Assembly: GCA_947449575.1 (NCBI GenBank)
Contig: CANFRV010000003.1
Span: 1-64,000, forward strand
Origin: Flavobacteriales bacterium
Lineage (GTDB): Bacteria; Bacteroidota; Bacteroidia; Flavobacteriales_D; Crocinitomicaceae
Direction: 5' to 3'
DNA: 64,000 nt
The notes below the pieces were generated by a model, which searched no databases, was not told the origin of the DNA, and was given only the letters and a program-made list of their open reading frames with translations. Below, one piece after another: positions 14,670 to 62,879 of this stretch. The translations under genes were made by a program, and so were the position numbers. Within the stretch, counting starts at the first letter, position 1. Each line of letters opens with the position of its first letter.

Positions 14670-14942
14670 TTTCGATTCTTTGGTGTAAAGAAAGTGATTG
14701 TTAGATCAGATAAAAATGATGAGTGTCATGTAAAAAAGATATACAAAAAAAAGAGGATGTCTCAAAAGCTGTAATTTATCTAAAAATTAACAATGTAAGT
14801 ATATATGAAAAAGTAAACAAATCATTTTTGTTGTTGATTTACAATTTGTTACTTTAATTTATCAAAAAAACTTATATGTCCTTATAATCCTTCCCTTCGG
14901 TCTTCGAAAGTATACTCTCTCTTATCGTTCAAAAAAAATAAA
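14670..14942. other. Intergenic region containing a possible MITE/IS remnant
   Basis: No gene is seen. The stretch from 14755 to 14963 is bounded by 14-base inverted termini matching at 13 of 14 positions (GGATGTCTCAAAAG and, reversed, GGCTGTCTCAAAAG). These resemble the ends of IS elements with a TGTCTCAAAA core. The interior has no ORF. The right end doubles as the terminator of the TonB receptor gene, so the match could be accidental. Confidence 0.35.
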
Positions 14943-42767: not shown

Positions 42768-42811
42768 ATGATACTAATCATTTTCTAGGGTATTCCTGCA
42801 CTCTACATTTG
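42768..42811 (+). promoter_or_regulatory. Fnr-type site and -7 box of narK
   Basis: ATGAT-ACTA-ATCAT (42768-42781) is a perfect palindrome centred at 42774.5. TACATTTG (42804-42811), an exact TAnnTTTG box, starts 29.5 bp later. The initiation point would be near 42816 with the site centred around -41, the class-II position. Confidence 0.8.
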
Positions 42812-42834: not shown

Positions 42835-44556
42835 ATGGGAAGTTTTAAAACATTTTTGAAATCGGGGCATCCGCCGACATTGTTTGCTGCATTTATTTAT
42901 TTTGATTTTTGTTTTGCAATTTGGGTTTTAAATGGCGCAATGGCGCCATTTATTAGCGAGGAGTTTCATTTAACTGCAGGTCAAAAAGGGTTTATGATTT
43001 CTGTTCCAATTTTAGCTGGTGCTATTATGAGATTTCCTTTAGGAGTGTTAGCACAGTATATTGGTAGAAAGTATGCTGCAATGACAGAAATGTCATTAAT
43101 AATTGTGGCGCTTCTCTATGGGTATTTTGGTGTGCATACATACAATGATGTCCTAATAATGGGGGTTTTATTAGGTATTGCAGGGGCTAGTTTTGGTGTT
43201 GCTCTCTCGCTAGGATCAGGCTGGTTTCCTCCAAAATATAAAGGGTTAGCAATGGGTATTGCAGGTGCAGGAAATAGCGGAACAGTGTTAGCTGTATTGT
43301 TAGCACCACCTTTAGCAATGCATTATGGTTTTAGATCTGTGTATGGATTTGCAGCTTTATTTATGCTGATTCCAATGATTGTCATGTTGATTTTTGCTAA
43401 AGAACCACCAGACAAAGAGCATCAAACACTAAAGCAACATTTAAGCTGTTTATTTGATCGCGATGGGTGGGTTTTTAATTTAGTGTATATCATAACCTTT
43501 GGAGGATTTATAGGATTAAGTAATTTTTTGCCTACTTATTTTACAGATCAATTTGGGGTAACCAAGGTTGAAGCTGGTCAATTAACCATGTTGGCGGCTT
43601 TAATGGGCAGTGGAATTCGTGTCCTGGGAGGTTGGGCCTCTGATAAGTTAGGAGGATTAAAAATGTTGTCAATTGTTTTTGTGTTAATAATCATCTTGAT
43701 GACTTTAACAGGTTTGCAAACATCACTTTTCATGACCACAGTTTTCTTTATTTTATGTTTTGCTGCTTTAGGTTTGGGGAATGGTTCTTTATTTCAATTA
43801 GTGCCTTTGAGATGGCCGACAACTACCGCTGTAGCAGGCTCTATGATTGGTGAAATTGGTGCAATAGGGGGTAGTGTTATCCCAAATTTAATGGGGTATT
43901 CTAAAGGTCACACGGGCAGTTATTCATCTGGATTTTTCATTTTTTCGGGTATTGCCACCGTTGCTTTTCTGGTTTTGATGATTGCTTCAAGAAAATGGAC
44001 AAAAACGTGGGTGGGAAAAGGAGGAAAAGCTTTGCCAATTAAGGCGATTGAGAATATTGTTGAGGGCGTTTCTGAAATGGGAACATTAGTTATCTCCTCA
44101 TTAGCAAAAACGAAAGATTATTTGAAAAGAATTGTTTATCCCGTTGGAAATTCAGAATTAGCAGAAAAAGCAGCAGAAAATGTAGCGAAGATTTGTTCAG
44201 GAAAGGATACAAAAGTAGTTGTTCTATACGTGGAAGAGCGATGGAGTTCGGCTGGTGCTGAAAACTCTGATTCTACCGACTGGAAGCAAGTAAGAGAGCA
44301 ATGGGTGGAGGAAGGAAAAGCGATTTTACAAACCGAAAAATTGCGACTCAATAAATTAGGTGTTGAAAATATTGAAATTGAAATGAGACACGGAGATATA
44401 GCCTATGAGATCGTTGAGTCAGCAAACGTTCATGAAGCTGATTTAATTGTATTGGCGAGTCATCAATCTTCTCCTGTAGGACAATTGTTGATGGGAAGCA
44501 GAACGTACAGCGTGTTTAAAAAAGCGGCTTGTCCAATTTTAAGGATCATTCGATAA
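42835..44556 (+). CDS. narK: NarK-type nitrate/nitrite transporter fused to a universal stress protein domain
   Basis: A 573-residue fusion. Residues 1-400 are a 12-span major facilitator of the nitrate/nitrite porter family. It has the two substrate Arg residues (AIMRFPLG in span 2, GSGIRVLGGWASDKLGG in span 8) and signatures near GLAMGIAGAGNSG and GLGNGSLFQLVP. Residues about 428-573 are a cytoplasmic UspA domain (KRIVYPVGNSELAEKAAENV, VVVLYVEERW, HEADLIVLASHQ, LLMGSRTYSVFKKAACPIL). It probably imports nitrate or exchanges nitrate and nitrite. The USP half may bind nucleotide or sense energy state. Its promoter has the cleanest Fnr-type site in the window. The second transporter follows 40 bp later. 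Confidence 0.9.
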   Translation: MGSFKTFLKSGHPPTLFAAFIYFDFCFAIWVLNGAMAPFISEEFHLTAGQKGFMISVPILAGAIMRFPLGVLAQYIGRKYAAMTEMSLIIVALLYGYFGVHTYNDVLIMGVLLGIAGASFGVALSLGSGWFPPKYKGLAMGIAGAGNSGTVLAVLLAPPLAMHYGFRSVYGFAALFMLIPMIVMLIFAKEPPDKEHQTLKQHLSCLFDRDGWVFNLVYIITFGGFIGLSNFLPTYFTDQFGVTKVEAGQLTMLAALMGSGIRVLGGWASDKLGGLKMLSIVFVLIIILMTLTGLQTSLFMTTVFFILCFAALGLGNGSLFQLVPLRWPTTTAVAGSMIGEIGAIGGSVIPNLMGYSKGHTGSYSSGFFIFSGIATVAFLVLMIASRKWTKTWVGKGGKALPIKAIENIVEGVSEMGTLVISSLAKTKDYLKRIVYPVGNSELAEKAAENVAKICSGKDTKVVVLYVEERWSSAGAENSDSTDWKQVREQWVEEGKAILQTEKLRLNKLGVENIEIEMRHGDIAYEIVESANVHEADLIVLASHQSSPVGQLLMGSRTYSVFKKAACPILRIIR

Positions 44557-47808: not shown

Positions 47809-48531
47809 ATGAAAATAATAGATAATGAAACTGGAAAGAGAGTAGGTGCAAAGGATGTTGACGTGAAAGCACATTCTAGGAAATTAAAAGAGGAAGACCC
47901 GATTTTAAGAAATGCAAATAAATCTGAAGAGTCTGAAGAATTATCTGAAGAATATTCTGCTATGGAACCACCAGATGCATATGATAAAGTGAGGGCGATT
48001 GGAGCAGATTACGATGCTATGGATTCTTTTATTCAGGAATTAATGGATGAACATAAGGAAGTTATCCTAAAGACGAATGAATTTGATGCTGCATTGTTGA
48101 AATTTAAGTCAGATTCTTACGTGTTTGATGAGGAGATAAATAATGCGTTCAATGACTTTTTTGTCTATTTCGATAATCATATTTTACCACATAATCGCAA
48201 GGAAGAAAGACATTATTTTCGATTATTGCATGATCGCTTAATTGAGTCTGGAGAGCATGGAAATGGCGAGAATCCAAGTACTGCGGTTGATTTAATGGAA
48301 GATGATCATGTCAAATTTATACAATTAGGTTCGCTGGTTTTTAATTTATTAGGTTTAGGTATTCGATTGAGAGACACTGAATCAAAAATTGTAACCTTTG
48401 ATTTGGCTTTTAATACCGGTAGAGAATTAGCTGAATTATTACGCTTACATATTTTTAGAGAAGATGAAACTTTATTTCCTTTGTCTCAGCAATTATTAAC
48501 GATAGAAGATTTTTTAATTATCCATGAGTAA
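47809..48531 (+). CDS. Hemerythrin-like HHE domain protein
   Basis: A 240-residue cytoplasmic protein. After a charged 60-residue N-terminal region, a four-helix hemerythrin-like domain shows candidate di-iron ligands: MDEHKEV, FDNHILPHNRKEE, MEDDHVKF and LHIFREDETLFP. Such proteins bind O2 or NO or store iron, and relatives accompany denitrification or nitrosative-stress genes. It overlaps moaA by 8 bp, and its promoter carries a perfect Fnr-type palindrome. This fits a role in NO handling or iron-sulfur repair during nitrate use, but the ligand is an inference. Confidence 0.8.
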   Translation: MKIIDNETGKRVGAKDVDVKAHSRKLKEEDPILRNANKSEESEELSEEYSAMEPPDAYDKVRAIGADYDAMDSFIQELMDEHKEVILKTNEFDAALLKFKSDSYVFDEEINNAFNDFFVYFDNHILPHNRKEERHYFRLLHDRLIESGEHGNGENPSTAVDLMEDDHVKFIQLGSLVFNLLGLGIRLRDTESKIVTFDLAFNTGRELAELLRLHIFREDETLFPLSQQLLTIEDFLIIHE

Positions 48532-49522
48532 GCCGAAGAATATTGTTGACACGTTTGGAAGAGTGCATGACTATCTTAGAATTTCATTGACGGAACGCTG
48601 CAATTTACGCTGTTTTTATTGTATGCCCGAAGATGGTATTCAGTTGCGCGATAAGGCTGAATTTATGACCACGGAAGAACTTATTTTTATTGCTAAAAAG
48701 TTCGTTGATTTAGGTGTTAAGAAAATTCGTCTAACGGGCGGTGAGCCATTGGTTAGAAGGGATTTTGGAACCATCATCCGACAATTAGGAGAACTCCCCG
48801 TTGAATTAGCAATCACAACAAATGCAGTTTTGATTGATAAATATATCGATGATATAAAAAGTGCAGGTGTAAAATCCATAAATGTGAGTCTGGATTCACT
48901 GAAAGAGGAGCGTTTTAATATGATCTCTCGAAGAAGTTATTATACCAAAATCAGAGATAATATAGATTTATTGATAAAAAATGATTTTCATGTTAAAATC
49001 AATATTGTCTTAATTAAAGGAACGAATGACGATGAAATAATTGATTTTGTTAACTGGACGGTCAATGAAAAAATTCAAATCCGTTTTATTGAATTCATGC
49101 CTTTTGATGGTAATAATTGGAATTGGGAAAAGAAAATCTCTTTCAAGGAAATTTTAGACAAAGTGGACGCTTTTTTTGGGAAGAAATTAGTTGAAAAACT
49201 GATAGATGGACCAAATGATACCACAAGAAATTATAAAATTACAGGTGGGCTAGGTTCCTTCGGGATTATTAGTTCAGTTACAAATCCATTTTGTGATACG
49301 TGTAATCGTATTCGTTTAACAGCAGATGGGAAAATTAAAAATTGCCTTTTTTCACAATCTGAATTAGATTTGTTAACCGCTCTTCGAAATGGAGTAGAAA
49401 TTGAAGAAATGATTATTGAGAATATTAAAGGGAAAGAAAAAGAACGCGGAGGAAATAAATCTTTTGAGAAATTAGAGGTTTCAAAAATAAAAAACCGAAC
49501 AATGATTTCTATAGGTGGTTAA
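48524..49522 (+). CDS. moaA: GTP 3',8-cyclase, molybdenum cofactor biosynthesis
   Basis: Radical-SAM enzyme that with MoaC converts GTP to cyclic pyranopterin monophosphate. It is 332 residues. The N-terminal cluster motif is CNLRCFYC, RLTGGEPLVRRD is the SAM region, and the C-terminal second cluster lies in FCDTCNRIRLTADGKIKNCLF. The protein ends SIGG, the usual GG tail. It overlaps the hemerythrin gene by 8 bp and is followed 16 bp later by a Crp/Fnr gene, forming one operon. Fnr-type control through the upstream palindrome is likely. Confidence 0.96.
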   Translation: MSKPKNIVDTFGRVHDYLRISLTERCNLRCFYCMPEDGIQLRDKAEFMTTEELIFIAKKFVDLGVKKIRLTGGEPLVRRDFGTIIRQLGELPVELAITTNAVLIDKYIDDIKSAGVKSINVSLDSLKEERFNMISRRSYYTKIRDNIDLLIKNDFHVKINIVLIKGTNDDEIIDFVNWTVNEKIQIRFIEFMPFDGNNWNWEKKISFKEILDKVDAFFGKKLVEKLIDGPNDTTRNYKITGGLGSFGIISSVTNPFCDTCNRIRLTADGKIKNCLFSQSELDLLTALRNGVEIEEMIIENIKGKEKERGGNKSFEKLEVSKIKNRTMISIGG

Positions 49523-49538
49523 TTAGTAGTATTATAGT

Positions 49539-50198
49539 ATGAATGAAATTATTAAAAAGTATTGTACTGAAGAATGGAGTGAATTTATAGCCTTTCATAG
49601 TGACAATGTGAAAGTGGAAGCTGGTGATTATATTTTTAAGGCTGGAGAAGACACCCTAGGGCTTTATATTATTGAATCAGGAAAAGTAAAAGTGGTCATT
49701 AATAATAATGACCAATCCGAACGTATTATTCGGTTAATTTCTACCAAAGATGTGCTAGGTCATAGAGGTTTTGGAGGCGATTGGAAATATTCTGTATCTG
49801 CAATCGCTTTAGAAGATTCTGTCTTAACGTTTATTCCTCTAAAAATATTTAATTATGTCGTCAAAGCTAATCCAGAATTTGGATATTATATGATGATGTT
49901 TTTTGCAGAAGAACTTAGGGAGTCTGAAAGGTTGGCGACTAATTTACCGATCAGGAACGTGATTGCCTCTGTGATATACAATATTTATAAGGTTTTTGGC
50001 CTAGAAAAAGGAAGTGAAACTAAACTTAGTTTTACACTATCAAGAAAGGATATTGCAAATCAAGCGGGTACAAGATATGAAACGGTAGTGCGAGTGCTAG
50101 CTGACCTTAAAAAAGAGGGTGTTATTCAAATTGATGGAAAAGCCATCCATATCTTAAATGTTGAAAAACTTGTAAATATTAAAAATGGAATTGAATAA
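49539..50198 (+). CDS. Crp/Fnr family regulator A
   Basis: A 219-residue regulator with a cyclic-nucleotide-binding-like domain (about 20-125; IFKAGEDTLGLYIIESGKVKV) and a C-terminal winged helix (SFTLSRKDIANQAGTRYETVVRVLADLKKEG). The recognition helix keeps E-x-x-x-R (ETVVR), the pair that in Fnr-type proteins reads the TGAT half-site. There are no cluster-forming cysteines, so it is not an O2-sensing FNR; a haem or NO-sensing DNR-like role is conceivable. It is third in the hemerythrin-moaA operon. Confidence 0.88.
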   Translation: MNEIIKKYCTEEWSEFIAFHSDNVKVEAGDYIFKAGEDTLGLYIIESGKVKVVINNNDQSERIIRLISTKDVLGHRGFGGDWKYSVSAIALEDSVLTFIPLKIFNYVVKANPEFGYYMMMFFAEELRESERLATNLPIRNVIASVIYNIYKVFGLEKGSETKLSFTLSRKDIANQAGTRYETVVRVLADLKKEGVIQIDGKAIHILNVEKLVNIKNGIE

Positions 50199-50278: not shown

Positions 50279-52090
50279 CTAGGCGATTGCAATTTCAATA
50301 TCTATGGCTTTCAGTAGGAGACTTTGAGTATGCAGTTCCTCTAATAAATCTTTGGAATTTTCAAAAGCACTTGCTTTCCATGTTGAAAATAAAGATCTGT
50401 AATACGTAATTCCTTCTTCCAGATTTGATTTAAATTCTTTCAATTTATTCAATTGCTTTTTATTTAAAGGATCAAAATTTGTACTTACCTCTTTTTTGAA
50501 ATGTTCAATATACATGTTGAGTTCTTTCAAAAACATATGCGGTCGTTTCTTAGTATTTAAAATATTGATTTTACCGTAAATGTGATCCACCATTTCTTTT
50601 AGAGAGAATGTTCTTGAGAAATAAGCGATATTAGGACCAGGACAAACGGCAATTCCTTCTCCTTCTGCTCTTGTTTCAATGTTTTTATCAATTAAGGCAG
50701 ATGTGCCTAAACTGCTGCACAAACAGGTTTTCTCTAATACTTCTTTTTTTTGCCTTTCTAATTCCTTCTCCGGCAAATTAGACGTATCTAAGCTTTGTAT
50801 TTTTAAATGAACATATTGTCTAGAGGCGACGCAGATAGGTTTTTCTGTAAATTCTGTATTGAAAGATAAAAACTTTTTAGGACAAGAGCTTCCAGGTCTG
50901 TTTTTTTCGAATAATTGCTGCATGCTTTTTTCAATGGTTGTTCCTCTGACTGTATTAAAAGGTACTCCAAGTGGTGAAATTGAACTTGTATATAAATCTT
51001 CTTCATTACATCTTTCTAAAAGATTTATTGTGGAAGAATCAATGCTAACTGCTTCGGGGACTAATAAAAAAGGAGTTCCCCAGCCGACACTGTCAATATT
51101 AAAAGAGTTCAAGAGCATTTGATGTTCCTCGAAATTTCCAACACCACCTTGAGCTGAAAATTTCATTGAATAGGGGGATTCAGGGACAAATTTATTTCTC
51201 TCTTTCATGGCTTCTTTATACGTGGAGAAAATTTCCTGAATCAATTCTTCGCGATCTTCATTGAATTTATCAAGTATAGGACCTAGTAAATCTCCTTGGG
51301 TAGCAAATGCGTGACCACCGCAATTTAGACCGGATTCAATTCTGAATTCTGACGTCCAAACACCTTTTTTTGCTAAAAATTTCCCTTGAATTAAAGCGGA
51401 TCTATAATCACTTACTTTTAATATCACTTTCTTTTTAATTTCTCCGTTTTTATCAGGAAGAAAGTCTGGGAAAGATTCGAAATAAGCAAATAAACGAGGG
51501 TTTAATCCTGCTGATATAACAATACTAGAATTGACGTCAGATAACGCGTAACCGCGCAAAGCAGCCATTGCATCATTATATTCGATAGGTAGTTGAGTCT
51601 TGTTTTTTGCGAATGTTGGATTATCTACTTTCGACATAATATTCACGTCAATGTTTCCGCATATCATTTGTGCTTTTAATTCTTGCTGAAATTTCTCTTT
51701 TTTGTCTTTATTTGTTTCCGTTTTCATTGCCTTGTATAGTGCAAATAAGACTGAGTCCGGACTTAATATTTCAAAATATTTAGTCAAATCCGTTCCTGCT
51801 TCAAAAACTTCTTTTTTTAGTTCTGTGAACTTAGTTTCGATGATTTCTTTAGATAAGTTTAAAAAAGAAGTGATTCTGTCTGCTCGATGGTTTTCTTCAT
51901 CACCTTTTATTTCATGATAGTCAAAGTTATACAGCTGACAATAATGCTTACGAATTTTTTCTATTAAAATATCATCACCTATTGAAAGTACAGACGCAAT
52001 GCCAAAATGAGAAACTTTTATTGGTGAATCAATTGTGTACCCTAAACCCATGACAGGAATGTGAAAAGTATGCGGATTTGTGTTATTCAT
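50279..52090 (-). CDS. Unknown 603-residue Cys-rich protein, Fnr-type promoter
   Basis: Cytoplasmic protein without signal peptide or membrane span. The N-terminus (HIPVMGLGYTIDSPIKVSHFGI) and the middle (GLNCGGHAFATQGDLLGPIL near 250, FSAQGGVGNFEEHQML near 310) resemble TIM-barrel flavin or glutamate-synthase-like proteins. The C-terminal half has clustered cysteines: SSCPKK (about 400), ICVAS (about 422), TCLCSS (about 455) and VCPGPN (about 483), a pattern that could ligate an iron-sulfur cluster. No family was recognised with certainty. It is monocistronic, next to three Crp/Fnr genes and moaA, and its promoter has a near-perfect Fnr-type site with an exact TAATTTTG box. Confidence 0.75.
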   Translation of the reverse strand: MNNTNPHTFHIPVMGLGYTIDSPIKVSHFGIASVLSIGDDILIEKIRKHYCQLYNFDYHEIKGDEENHRADRITSFLNLSKEIIETKFTELKKEVFEAGTDLTKYFEILSPDSVLFALYKAMKTETNKDKKEKFQQELKAQMICGNIDVNIMSKVDNPTFAKNKTQLPIEYNDAMAALRGYALSDVNSSIVISAGLNPRLFAYFESFPDFLPDKNGEIKKKVILKVSDYRSALIQGKFLAKKGVWTSEFRIESGLNCGGHAFATQGDLLGPILDKFNEDREELIQEIFSTYKEAMKERNKFVPESPYSMKFSAQGGVGNFEEHQMLLNSFNIDSVGWGTPFLLVPEAVSIDSSTINLLERCNEEDLYTSSISPLGVPFNTVRGTTIEKSMQQLFEKNRPGSSCPKKFLSFNTEFTEKPICVASRQYVHLKIQSLDTSNLPEKELERQKKEVLEKTCLCSSLGTSALIDKNIETRAEGEGIAVCPGPNIAYFSRTFSLKEMVDHIYGKINILNTKKRPHMFLKELNMYIEHFKKEVSTNFDPLNKKQLNKLKEFKSNLEEGITYYRSLFSTWKASAFENSKDLLEELHTQSLLLKAIDIEIAIA

Positions 52091-52119: not shown

Positions 52120-52163
52120 CAAAATTACGTAAGTTGTCTCAAATTTAATATGACATAAATCAT
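52120..52163 (-). promoter_or_regulatory. Fnr-type site and -7 box of the 603-residue gene
   Basis: Read on the minus strand, ATGAT-TTAT-GTCAT (52163-52150) is centred at 52156.5. TAATTTTG (52127-52120), an exact TAnnTTTG box, begins 29.5 bp downstream. The start codon follows about 30 bp later. Confidence 0.8.
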
Positions 52164-52324: not shown

Positions 52325-52963
52325 TTAATTAGGATGGTTTGGTGTTAATAATGCTTTTAATTTTTCGAGATGCGTAATTGTTATCTTTTCATCCTTCATT
52401 TTAATTAGATTTTTTGCGGTTAAATCTTTTATCGTAGTAAGAACTTGTATAGATGAAACGCCTGTTAATTCAGTTAGATCATCAATTGAAAGATAAATTT
52501 TCCTTAAATCGTTTTCAAATAGTACATTGTTTAGTATCTCATTAATAATTCTTTCTGAAGTGGTAAGTTGAGTAAAACTTTTAGTTTTGTTGTCGGTTAT
52601 TTTTATCCGTCGACAAAGTATTTCAATCATTGTTTTGCCAAATTCTGGATTTTCAATCAGTGCTTTTTTGAAAAATGACTTGTCAATTTTAAGTAAGGAA
52701 GAGTTTTCGCAAGCAACTGCTGTGAAGTAAAAATGATCACCATCGCACAAGCAAGAAGTTATTCCAATAAATTCTTTTTCACGTGTAAATCCGATAACAT
52801 TTTCTGTCTTGCTAACCTTTAATTTCCCCGATTTAATAAAGAAAACAAAGTCATTTATTTCGCCTTCTTTAAATAGTATTTCACCTTTAGTTATATCAAT
52901 AATTTCACTTGGGAATAATGTTTTTATATAGTTTAAATTAAAAAATAGATTATCTGTTTTCAT
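52325..52963 (-). CDS. Crp/Fnr family regulator B (atypical recognition helix)
   Basis: A 212-residue regulator. The effector domain (about 20-125) shows ITKGEILFKEGEINDFVFFIKSGKLKV. The C-terminal winged helix (SIDDLTELTGVSSIQVLTTIKDLTAKNLI) lacks the usual E-x-x-x-R in the recognition helix (SSIQVLTTI), so its DNA target probably differs from the ATGAT site or it acts as a partner. Cys residues lie at CLCDGD and in FTAVACENSS, not in an FNR pattern. Its own promoter carries an Fnr-type site, so it is a target of the regulon. Confidence 0.8.
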   Translation of the reverse strand: MKTDNLFFNLNYIKTLFPSEIIDITKGEILFKEGEINDFVFFIKSGKLKVSKTENVIGFTREKEFIGITSCLCDGDHFYFTAVACENSSLLKIDKSFFKKALIENPEFGKTMIEILCRRIKITDNKTKSFTQLTTSERIINEILNNVLFENDLRKIYLSIDDLTELTGVSSIQVLTTIKDLTAKNLIKMKDEKITITHLEKLKALLTPNHPN

Positions 52964-53108: not shown

Positions 53109-53819
53109 TTAATCATAGGTGTTAGAACTTTGAACGAGCTTTTTGAAATTTGTAATTAAAATGTTTTTCCCTTCTAGTTTAATAACGTTATCACTGCTTA
53201 ATTGAGAAAGTGTTCTAATCGTTGTTTCAGTTGAAGTTCCCGCTAAGTCAGCTATTTCTGATCTTGTTAAGTTTACATTTAAAGTGATTTTATCTTCTAA
53301 GTAACCAAACGAGTTGACGAGCAATATTAATGCTTCAGCTATTCTTTCCTTTACGGTTTTTTGCGCTACGTCAATCAAATGTTGTTCGGCACTTTTTAGG
53401 TCTTTAGATAGTAGTTGAATTAAATTCAGGGATAATTTGTAATTATCTTCATTCACTTTTTGAAATACTTCTTTTGAAATGATGCAAATTTCACATTCTA
53501 CCATGGCTGTAGCTGTTCCGTGGTAAGGTTCGTTACTTAATAATGAGCGATATCCTAGAATGTCACCTGACTTAGCGAAACGAACGATCTGTTCTTTTCC
53601 GTCTTTTCCTAGTTTTGAAAGTTTTACTTTTCCTTTGTGAATGCAGAATAAATTATAAGCATTATTTCCTTCTTTAAAAATTATTTCACCTTTTTTAAAG
53701 ATACCATCTAGTTTACCGCATGATAGCTCAGTTTTCTCTTTTATGTTTAACGAACAAAGGATTCCTGCTGAATTTTCGCAGTTTGTACAAGAAGGAATTT
53801 CTATATTATTTTTTTTCAT
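53109..53819 (-). CDS. Crp/Fnr family regulator C with FNR-like N-terminal cysteines
   Basis: A 236-residue regulator. The N-terminus has SCTNC, then LC at 22 and SC at 34 (C-x2-C-x7-C-x11-C), which resembles the [4Fe-4S] ligands of FNR O2 sensors. The effector domain (about 40-150; GEIIFKEGNNAYNLFCIHKGKVKL) and winged helix follow (LTRSEIADLAGTSTETTIRTLSQL), with E-x-x-x-R in TETTIR. It is thus the best candidate reader of the ATGAT-N4-ATCAT sites. It is divergent from moeA. A -7 box TAATTTTG lies at 53849-53842, without a matching Fnr-type site at the standard distance, so it may be expressed constitutively. Confidence 0.87.
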   Translation of the reverse strand: MKKNNIEIPSCTNCENSAGILCSLNIKEKTELSCGKLDGIFKKGEIIFKEGNNAYNLFCIHKGKVKLSKLGKDGKEQIVRFAKSGDILGYRSLLSNEPYHGTATAMVECEICIISKEVFQKVNEDNYKLSLNLIQLLSKDLKSAEQHLIDVAQKTVKERIAEALILLVNSFGYLEDKITLNVNLTRSEIADLAGTSTETTIRTLSQLSSDNVIKLEGKNILITNFKKLVQSSNTYD

Positions 53820-62464: not shown

Positions 62465-62879
62465 TTATATATTTATTTAGTCATCTTTAAATCGTACAAT
62501 TTAACCCTTTTTTATTTTTTTTATCTTCGACAAATAGCAACTCGTTTATTGTGAATGTATGTGTTATTTATAGTTGTGAATGTGTATTTGTTTATTAAGA
62601 TTCATTCTTGATAAACAAACCTTTAGGTGTCATTTTAATTCTATGATTTAAATCATTTTTATATGTAGTAACAAATAGGAATTTTACCACATAAATAAAC
62701 GAGGTGTGTAGGTCATTTCTAGTTGAAATGAAAATATACATGGTTGGTTTAAAAAAATATACACAATGAAAAGAAAAGGAGTAAGAAAAGAAGTTGGCGA
62801 TTTCGGACTCGAAAACTGTCTGCCACTGCCGCACTTGCAATGCAGCACAACGCTTCTTTTTCTTTGTTGGTTTTAATTC
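62465..62879. other. Intergenic region with orphan Fnr site and compositional patch
   Basis: It contains a perfect Fnr-type palindrome (62643-62656), then a 13-codon ORF (62727; MKIYMVGLKK) that ends at once, followed by a GC-richer patch at about 62795-62855 rich in TGC, CACT and GCA motifs. The patch directly abuts the DinB-like gene. No full gene is seen. It may be the junction of an inserted segment. Confidence 0.45.
62643..62656 (+). promoter_or_regulatory. Orphan Fnr-type palindrome with a weak box
   Basis: ATGAT-TTAA-ATCAT is perfect. On the plus strand the sequence 29.5 bp on (GAATTTTA) keeps the A and TTT of TAnnTTTG. Downstream there is only a 13-codon open frame, so the regulated gene seems lost or truncated. 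Confidence 0.5.

Follow-up and report, generated by a model that had tools for sequence, protein, structure and literature searches.

FabX of Helicobacter pylori, a flavin and iron-sulfur enzyme through which bacterial membrane fatty acids acquire their double bond, is an acyl-ACP dehydrogenase/isomerase (PMC8626469; PDB 7e1q). The enzyme hands its electrons to O2, and its [4Fe-4S] cluster is held by C300, C304, C308 and C320, in the arrangement C-x3-C-x3-C-x11-C (PMC8626469). UfaA/NGO1024, the gonococcal homologue of FabX, is cited in PMC11300592 as needed for anaerobic unsaturated acyl synthesis, with an acceptor given there as unknown; NGO1024 of Neisseria gonorrhoeae is anaerobically induced (PMC3032703). 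Here, we describe a gene (P0001; 50279..52090, minus strand) that codes, from an ATG, for a 603-residue FabX-like flavoprotein, and that lies within the window, i.e., the whole stretch of 64,000 nucleotides analyzed.

An unannotated protein family in the Bacteroidota

In line with the initial annotation, which recognized no family with certainty, neither Pfam nor NCBIfam gave a match for the protein. The nitronate monooxygenase (NMO) family PF03060 did not match it at E<=1, did not appear in the list of 25 families obtained for 45 relatives, and, when run against the genome, did not have 50279-52090 among its listed matches; scanning the 45 relatives for families returned coiled-coil noise alone. 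A sequence search of the PDB, with the protein itself or with a 45-row profile, gave only noise, namely one weak chance match and coiled-coil hits to the C-terminal helices. No relative was found in plasmid and phage collections, and we found no paper describing the family. However, the protein is no orphan: a scan of species genomes gave 49 relatives, 44-70% identical to it. Taken together, the relatives are 42-70% identical over nearly the full length, which points to a genuine and strongly constrained protein. Most of the 49 are from Bacteroidota; the labels Ignavibacteria, Calditrichota, Deltaproteobacteria, Desulfocapsa and Nitrospirae each occur once (labels of metagenome-assembled genomes can err). 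By profile search, 134 of the 396 Bacteroidia genomes sampled carry the family, representing 72 of 199 genera. Thus, the protein is a member of an unannotated, widespread and strongly conserved family. A few copies of the gene are broken or split by a frameshift or stops (L045:7983-9732, G389:C26:73826-75557 and G306:C1), and one of the genomes concerned carries several partial copies.

Predicted fold, active site and cysteine region

An AlphaFold2 model of the protein, built with 45 homologues, had a mean pLDDT of 90.4 and a pTM of 0.90. When the model was compared with known structures using VIA-align, five H. pylori FabX entries ranked first (Z 22.9-24.4, rmsd of about 3.0, up to 336 aligned residues); in a superposition at Z 24.3, 333 of about 366 FabX residues were aligned, a number that has to include most of the C-terminal iron-sulfur subdomain of FabX (97 residues), so that, by this count, the subdomain would be largely covered in the model. 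FabX also occupied the top rows in Foldseek (E 7.6e-11), followed, in both searches, by PfaD, FabK and nitronate monooxygenases. The predicted fold is an FMN-type TIM barrel with a GGH catalytic loop and a GG phosphate strand, as in the NMO/FabK/FabX superfamily; this fold class is well supported by the model, and bears out the flavin-like, TIM-barrel start that had been read from the sequence. The model further shows a helical insert (residues ~40-145) and C-terminal helices (519-602) that are absent from FabX. The glutamate-synthase-like fold suggested along with the barrel was not among the fold matches listed; an FMN-binding enzyme of that type, for which the earlier suggestion is the only argument and which gave no Pfam Glu_synthase match, is given practically no weight.

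For a comparison of sequence profiles, a canonical FabX encoded in an environmental genome (L151; matched to 7e1q by phmmer at 6e-67) was used as the anchor and aligned with eight further canonical FabX proteins, from Bacteroidia (n=9). Using hhalign, the family matched this canonical set (93%, E 3.4e-7), and did so again in a repeat with our own alignments (87%, 5e-7), whereas nothing was found against FabK, class I NMO, a second NMO-like group or reversed decoys. FabX is thus the closest match in both sequence profile and fold, at an identity of about 20%. The second NMO-like group (L058, L126, L130, L131, L133, L135), with a conserved motif of the K-L-S-G-T-P-C type, is separate and is also represented in this genome. 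PfaD and FabK being the next-best fold matches (Z ~20-22), the protein could be an enoyl-ACP reductase, or a trans-acting reductase like PfaD, working in the reductive direction. This reading is improbable, since FabX outranks both in the fold search, the FabK profiles give no match, no NAD(P)H-binding part was recognized in the protein, and the genome already encodes a FabK-like protein (L057).

Residue conservation was counted over 81 family sequences and set against the functional residues of FabX (PMC8626469). The catalytic loop, E-S-G-L-N-C-G-G-H (codons 252-260; 51311..51337, minus strand), contains the motif singled out in the initial annotation and is the most conserved loop of the family, with R250, E252-S-G254 and N256-C-G-G-H260 identical in 81/81 sequences. 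In the hhalign alignment H260 corresponds to the catalytic H182 of FabX, and N99, S149 and S273 of FabX correspond to N150 (51641..51643, minus strand; N99 contacts FMN), S227 and S372 (50975..50977, minus strand; within S-P-L-G-V), all four residues being invariant (81/81). T243 is represented by T or S at position 339, and E175 by E252, an assignment that depends on an insertion of one residue, which L151 has as well. Equivalents of the catalytic His and of four FMN-site residues of FabX (N99, E175, T243 and S273) are thus present in the family. The FMN phosphate-site strands, QGG...GWGTPF, are encoded by codons 314-341 (51068..51151, minus strand; hhalign and conservation). In the loop of the first barrel strand, P-V-M-G, which we placed on Q-G-G-M-G of FabX, an FMN contact, by our own positional alignment (FabX residues from PMC8626469), M14 (52049..52051, minus strand) is found in 76/81 sequences and G15 in 80/81. 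Two positions depart from FabX: Q240, an FMN contact, is replaced by G336 (81/81), and Y277 by V or I. The segment KVSDYRSALIQGKFLAKK (codons 225-242; 51365..51418, minus strand) corresponds, by hhalign and conservation, to helix alpha7, the ACP-docking helix of FabX, with K152, I156, K159 and R164 represented by R230, I234, K237 and K242. Its basic residues are kept in most sequences (R230 in 79/81, K237 in 74/81 and K242 in 77/81), so that the family retains a basic docking helix.

The cluster of cysteines first noted at about 400-485 also stood up to closer inspection: C403, C420, C456, C458 and C483 (codons 403-483; 50642..50884, minus strand) are invariant in 81/81 sequences, as is C257 in the catalytic loop. 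The five are spread across 81 residues, in the region of the FabX [4Fe-4S] subdomain, and are proposed, from their conservation, as an iron-sulfur site. The C-x3-C-x3-C-x11-C ligand pattern of FabX is absent from the family, and the spacing differs because a helical segment is inserted. By hhalign, C403 aligns with C300 of FabX, and C420 with the last of its four ligand cysteines, whereas a local BLAST segment favored C456. Folded alone, the cysteine subdomain (residues 362-510) gave a pLDDT of 82 and no structural match; its likeness to the FabX subdomain therefore comes from the whole-chain alignment only. We propose that the invariant cysteines are positioned like the iron-sulfur subdomain and may hold a cluster. 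The cysteine spacing and Q240 were both checked, and, since both differ, the family was not filed as FabX; it is best named FabX-like, and in the best reading works like FabX.

Proposed low-oxygen regulation and genomic setting

The gene is flanked, as originally described, by Crp/Fnr and moaA genes: a convergent Crp/Fnr regulator gene (49539..50198, plus strand) is followed, one gene further, by moaA (48524-49522). On the upstream side, after a gap of 234 bp, lie two genes for Crp/Fnr-family regulators (52325..52963 and 53109..53819, both minus strand). This layout fits a monocistronic gene. Upstream of the start codon, a TAATTTTG box of the Bacteroidota TAnnTTTG -7 type is found at 52120..52127 (minus strand), an exact copy as had been claimed; but with 16 copies of this octamer across the window, the box is weak on its own, and it was dropped as evidence. 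The argument for a regulon is instead borne by a palindromic Crp/Fnr-type dyad, ATGA-N6-TCAT (52150..52163, minus strand), with 35 bp from the dyad TGA to the TAnnTTTG box, because this dyad is conserved upstream of orthologues. TGA-N6-TCA was found upstream of 36/67 orthologues (5.3 expected from shuffling), against 83 of 369 other genes of the same loci (22%; p 8e-7); ATGA-N6-TCAT was found upstream of 17/67 orthologues (0.6 expected). The spacing between dyad and TAnnTTTG box clusters at 34-35 and 56-57 bp (14/24 pairs), although the 57-bp group includes several closely related sequences; such spacings would suit activator sites at around -41 and -62. Within the window, ATGA-N6-TCAT was found six times, against 2.6 expected, and four of the dyads lie ahead of start codons belonging to the low-oxygen set: those of an MFS gene (42835), of a hemerythrin-moaA-crp operon (47809), of the FabX-like gene and of moeA/crp (53942/53819). 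As the dyad is conserved and stands at a distance from the box that would suit an activator, membership of the gene in a low-oxygen regulon of the Crp/Fnr type, as first suggested, is well supported. The MFS gene (42835-44556), which is NarK-like, has its own ATGA-N6-TCAT at 42768, and its product, as read from the sequence, seems to bear a C-terminal universal-stress-like extension; further dyads are at 62643-62656 and 14716-14729.

The neighbors of the orthologues are variable, but enriched in low-oxygen functions (some names being read from the sequence): Nos proteins, Rrf2 and Crp/Fnr regulators, hemerythrin/ScdA, ribonucleotide reductases, HemN-like proteins and ETF. No fatty-acid gene was recognized among the recurrent neighbors. 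In two Saprospiraceae (L004, L006), the family gene lies next to, and divergent from, genes for ETF subunits and an acyl-CoA-dehydrogenase-like protein (the latter name read from the sequence), which is possibly a hint at the electron acceptor. The commonest neighbor family is 6-pyruvoyl-tetrahydropterin synthase, at 6 of the 104 neighbors scanned; a gene of this kind (cluster c4) was seen adjacent or next but one in eight loci (L012, L016, L033, L034, L040, L044, L046 and L056). This neighbor, the low identity to FabX, and the helical insert and C-terminal helices beyond FabX would suit a low-oxygen enzyme that has the same FMN and Fe-S scaffold but, in place of acyl-ACP, acts on a small molecule such as a pterin, a quinone or an aldehyde. 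We consider this doubtful, though a serious alternative: pterin genes lie next to few loci, profile comparison detects FabX only, and the protein retains the basic ACP-docking helix together with the catalytic positions of FabX.

Across the sampled Bacteroidia, NosZ was found in 88 of the 134 family-bearing genomes and in 52 of the 262 others (odds ratio 7.7, counted without a tree); the association persists when genera are counted (57/72 against 27/127; odds ratio 14). This lineage-wide association is with nitrous-oxide reductase, and the tie to nitrate drawn in the initial annotation did not hold in this genome: the sole molybdopterin oxidoreductase that the PF00384 search found there (E<=1e-15) is the alpha subunit of formate dehydrogenase (L209; G000:C1:174890-176158), no molybdopterin nitrate reductase was found, and a congener that also bears the family (G005) gave no PF00384 match. 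The window nevertheless holds a pair of NarK-like genes as well as a molybdenum-cofactor cluster. A nitronate monooxygenase, or an enzyme of a denitrification regulon that detoxifies nitro or NO products, would agree with the superfamily fold, with the co-occurrence of NosZ and with the hemerythrin/ScdA and Nos genes among the neighbors. Yet NosZ is absent from this genome, the class I NMO profile gives no match, and NMO chemistry requires O2, while relatives occur in lineages of obligate anaerobes such as Desulfocapsa (L036); this assignment is very unlikely.

Canonical FabX was found in 8 of the 396 Bacteroidia genomes, none of which has the 603-residue family (P = 0.035), and FabA in none of the 396, whereas the search did detect it in the E. 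coli and Caulobacter controls. Oxygen-dependent desaturases number four in this genome and were present in 18 of the 20 family-bearing genomes of the class that were checked; none was found in the four canonical-FabX genomes that were checked.

Proposed reaction and comparison with known systems

A facultative bacterium that has desaturases, but neither FabA nor FabX, must have a way of obtaining unsaturated fatty acids without oxygen, and a FabX-like flavoenzyme made at low oxygen fits this need. We consider it somewhat probable that the protein, as an FMN-dependent member of the NMO/FabK/FabX flavoprotein superfamily, acts as a FabX-like acyl-ACP dehydrogenase/isomerase and gives rise to unsaturated fatty acids under anoxia. 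The enzyme would be expressed at low oxygen from the Crp/Fnr-type promoter. Its substrate would be a saturated acyl-ACP of medium chain length, drawn from fatty-acid synthesis and oxidized at C2-C3 with the invariant His260 and FMN, and the 2-enoyl product would isomerize to the cis-3 form, to be elongated into unsaturated fatty acids. Electrons would leave through an iron-sulfur center on the invariant C-terminal cysteines, toward an acceptor other than O2. In this way, the enzyme may replace the oxygen-dependent desaturases under anoxia in bacteria that lack FabA. Of this, the analysis shows the predicted fold, the position of FabX as nearest relative, the conservation of the catalytic residues, the cysteines and the dyad, and the co-occurrence pattern; we infer the FMN occupancy, the cluster, the ACP substrate, the isomerization and the electron acceptor. 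The initial annotation had named kinship with a characterized family of unrelated function as telling against its reading of a nitrate- or low-oxygen-induced redox enzyme, and this applies in part, the nearest characterized protein, FabX, being a fatty-acid enzyme.

Because FabX of H. pylori needs O2, the acceptor of an anaerobic FabX-like enzyme must differ. A bolder and more tentative idea is that the family represents a second, independent design for the FabX reaction, with new iron-sulfur ligands and a non-O2 acceptor (e.g., ETF or a quinone), and that it is the general missing route to unsaturated fatty acids in anoxic Bacteroidota. Among the Bacteroidota sampled, FabA is absent and FabX rare, although many of these bacteria are denitrifiers or inhabit anoxic settings, where desaturases cannot work. 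A conserved FabX-like family under low-oxygen control, present in a third of the sampled Bacteroidia, offers a concrete and testable answer to how unsaturated membrane lipids are made in anoxia, and reopens the question of which electron acceptor serves the FabX/UfaA enzymes in the absence of O2.

The family shares with FabX the FMN TIM barrel, the equivalents of His182, N99, S149 and S273, the basic ACP helix and, at the same place, a cysteine-bearing C-terminal region. It differs from FabX in size (603 residues against 363), with the helical insert and C-terminal helices found only in the family, in the spacing of the cysteines, in the replacement of Q240 and Y277, in sharing only about 20% identity with it, and in occurring mainly in denitrifying or facultative Bacteroidota. 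UfaA/NGO1024 is a FabX homologue and is expressed at low oxygen, as is inferred for the family, but it belongs with canonical FabX, sharing about 36% identity with the Bacteroidales FabX described in PMC11300592. PfaD and FabK, which are FMN enoyl reductases, belong to the same barrel superfamily, but have lower fold scores and work in the reductive direction, and FabK has no profile match. FabA has the role proposed here for the family, the oxygen-independent formation of unsaturated fatty acids, but has a hot-dog fold, unrelated to the FMN barrel.
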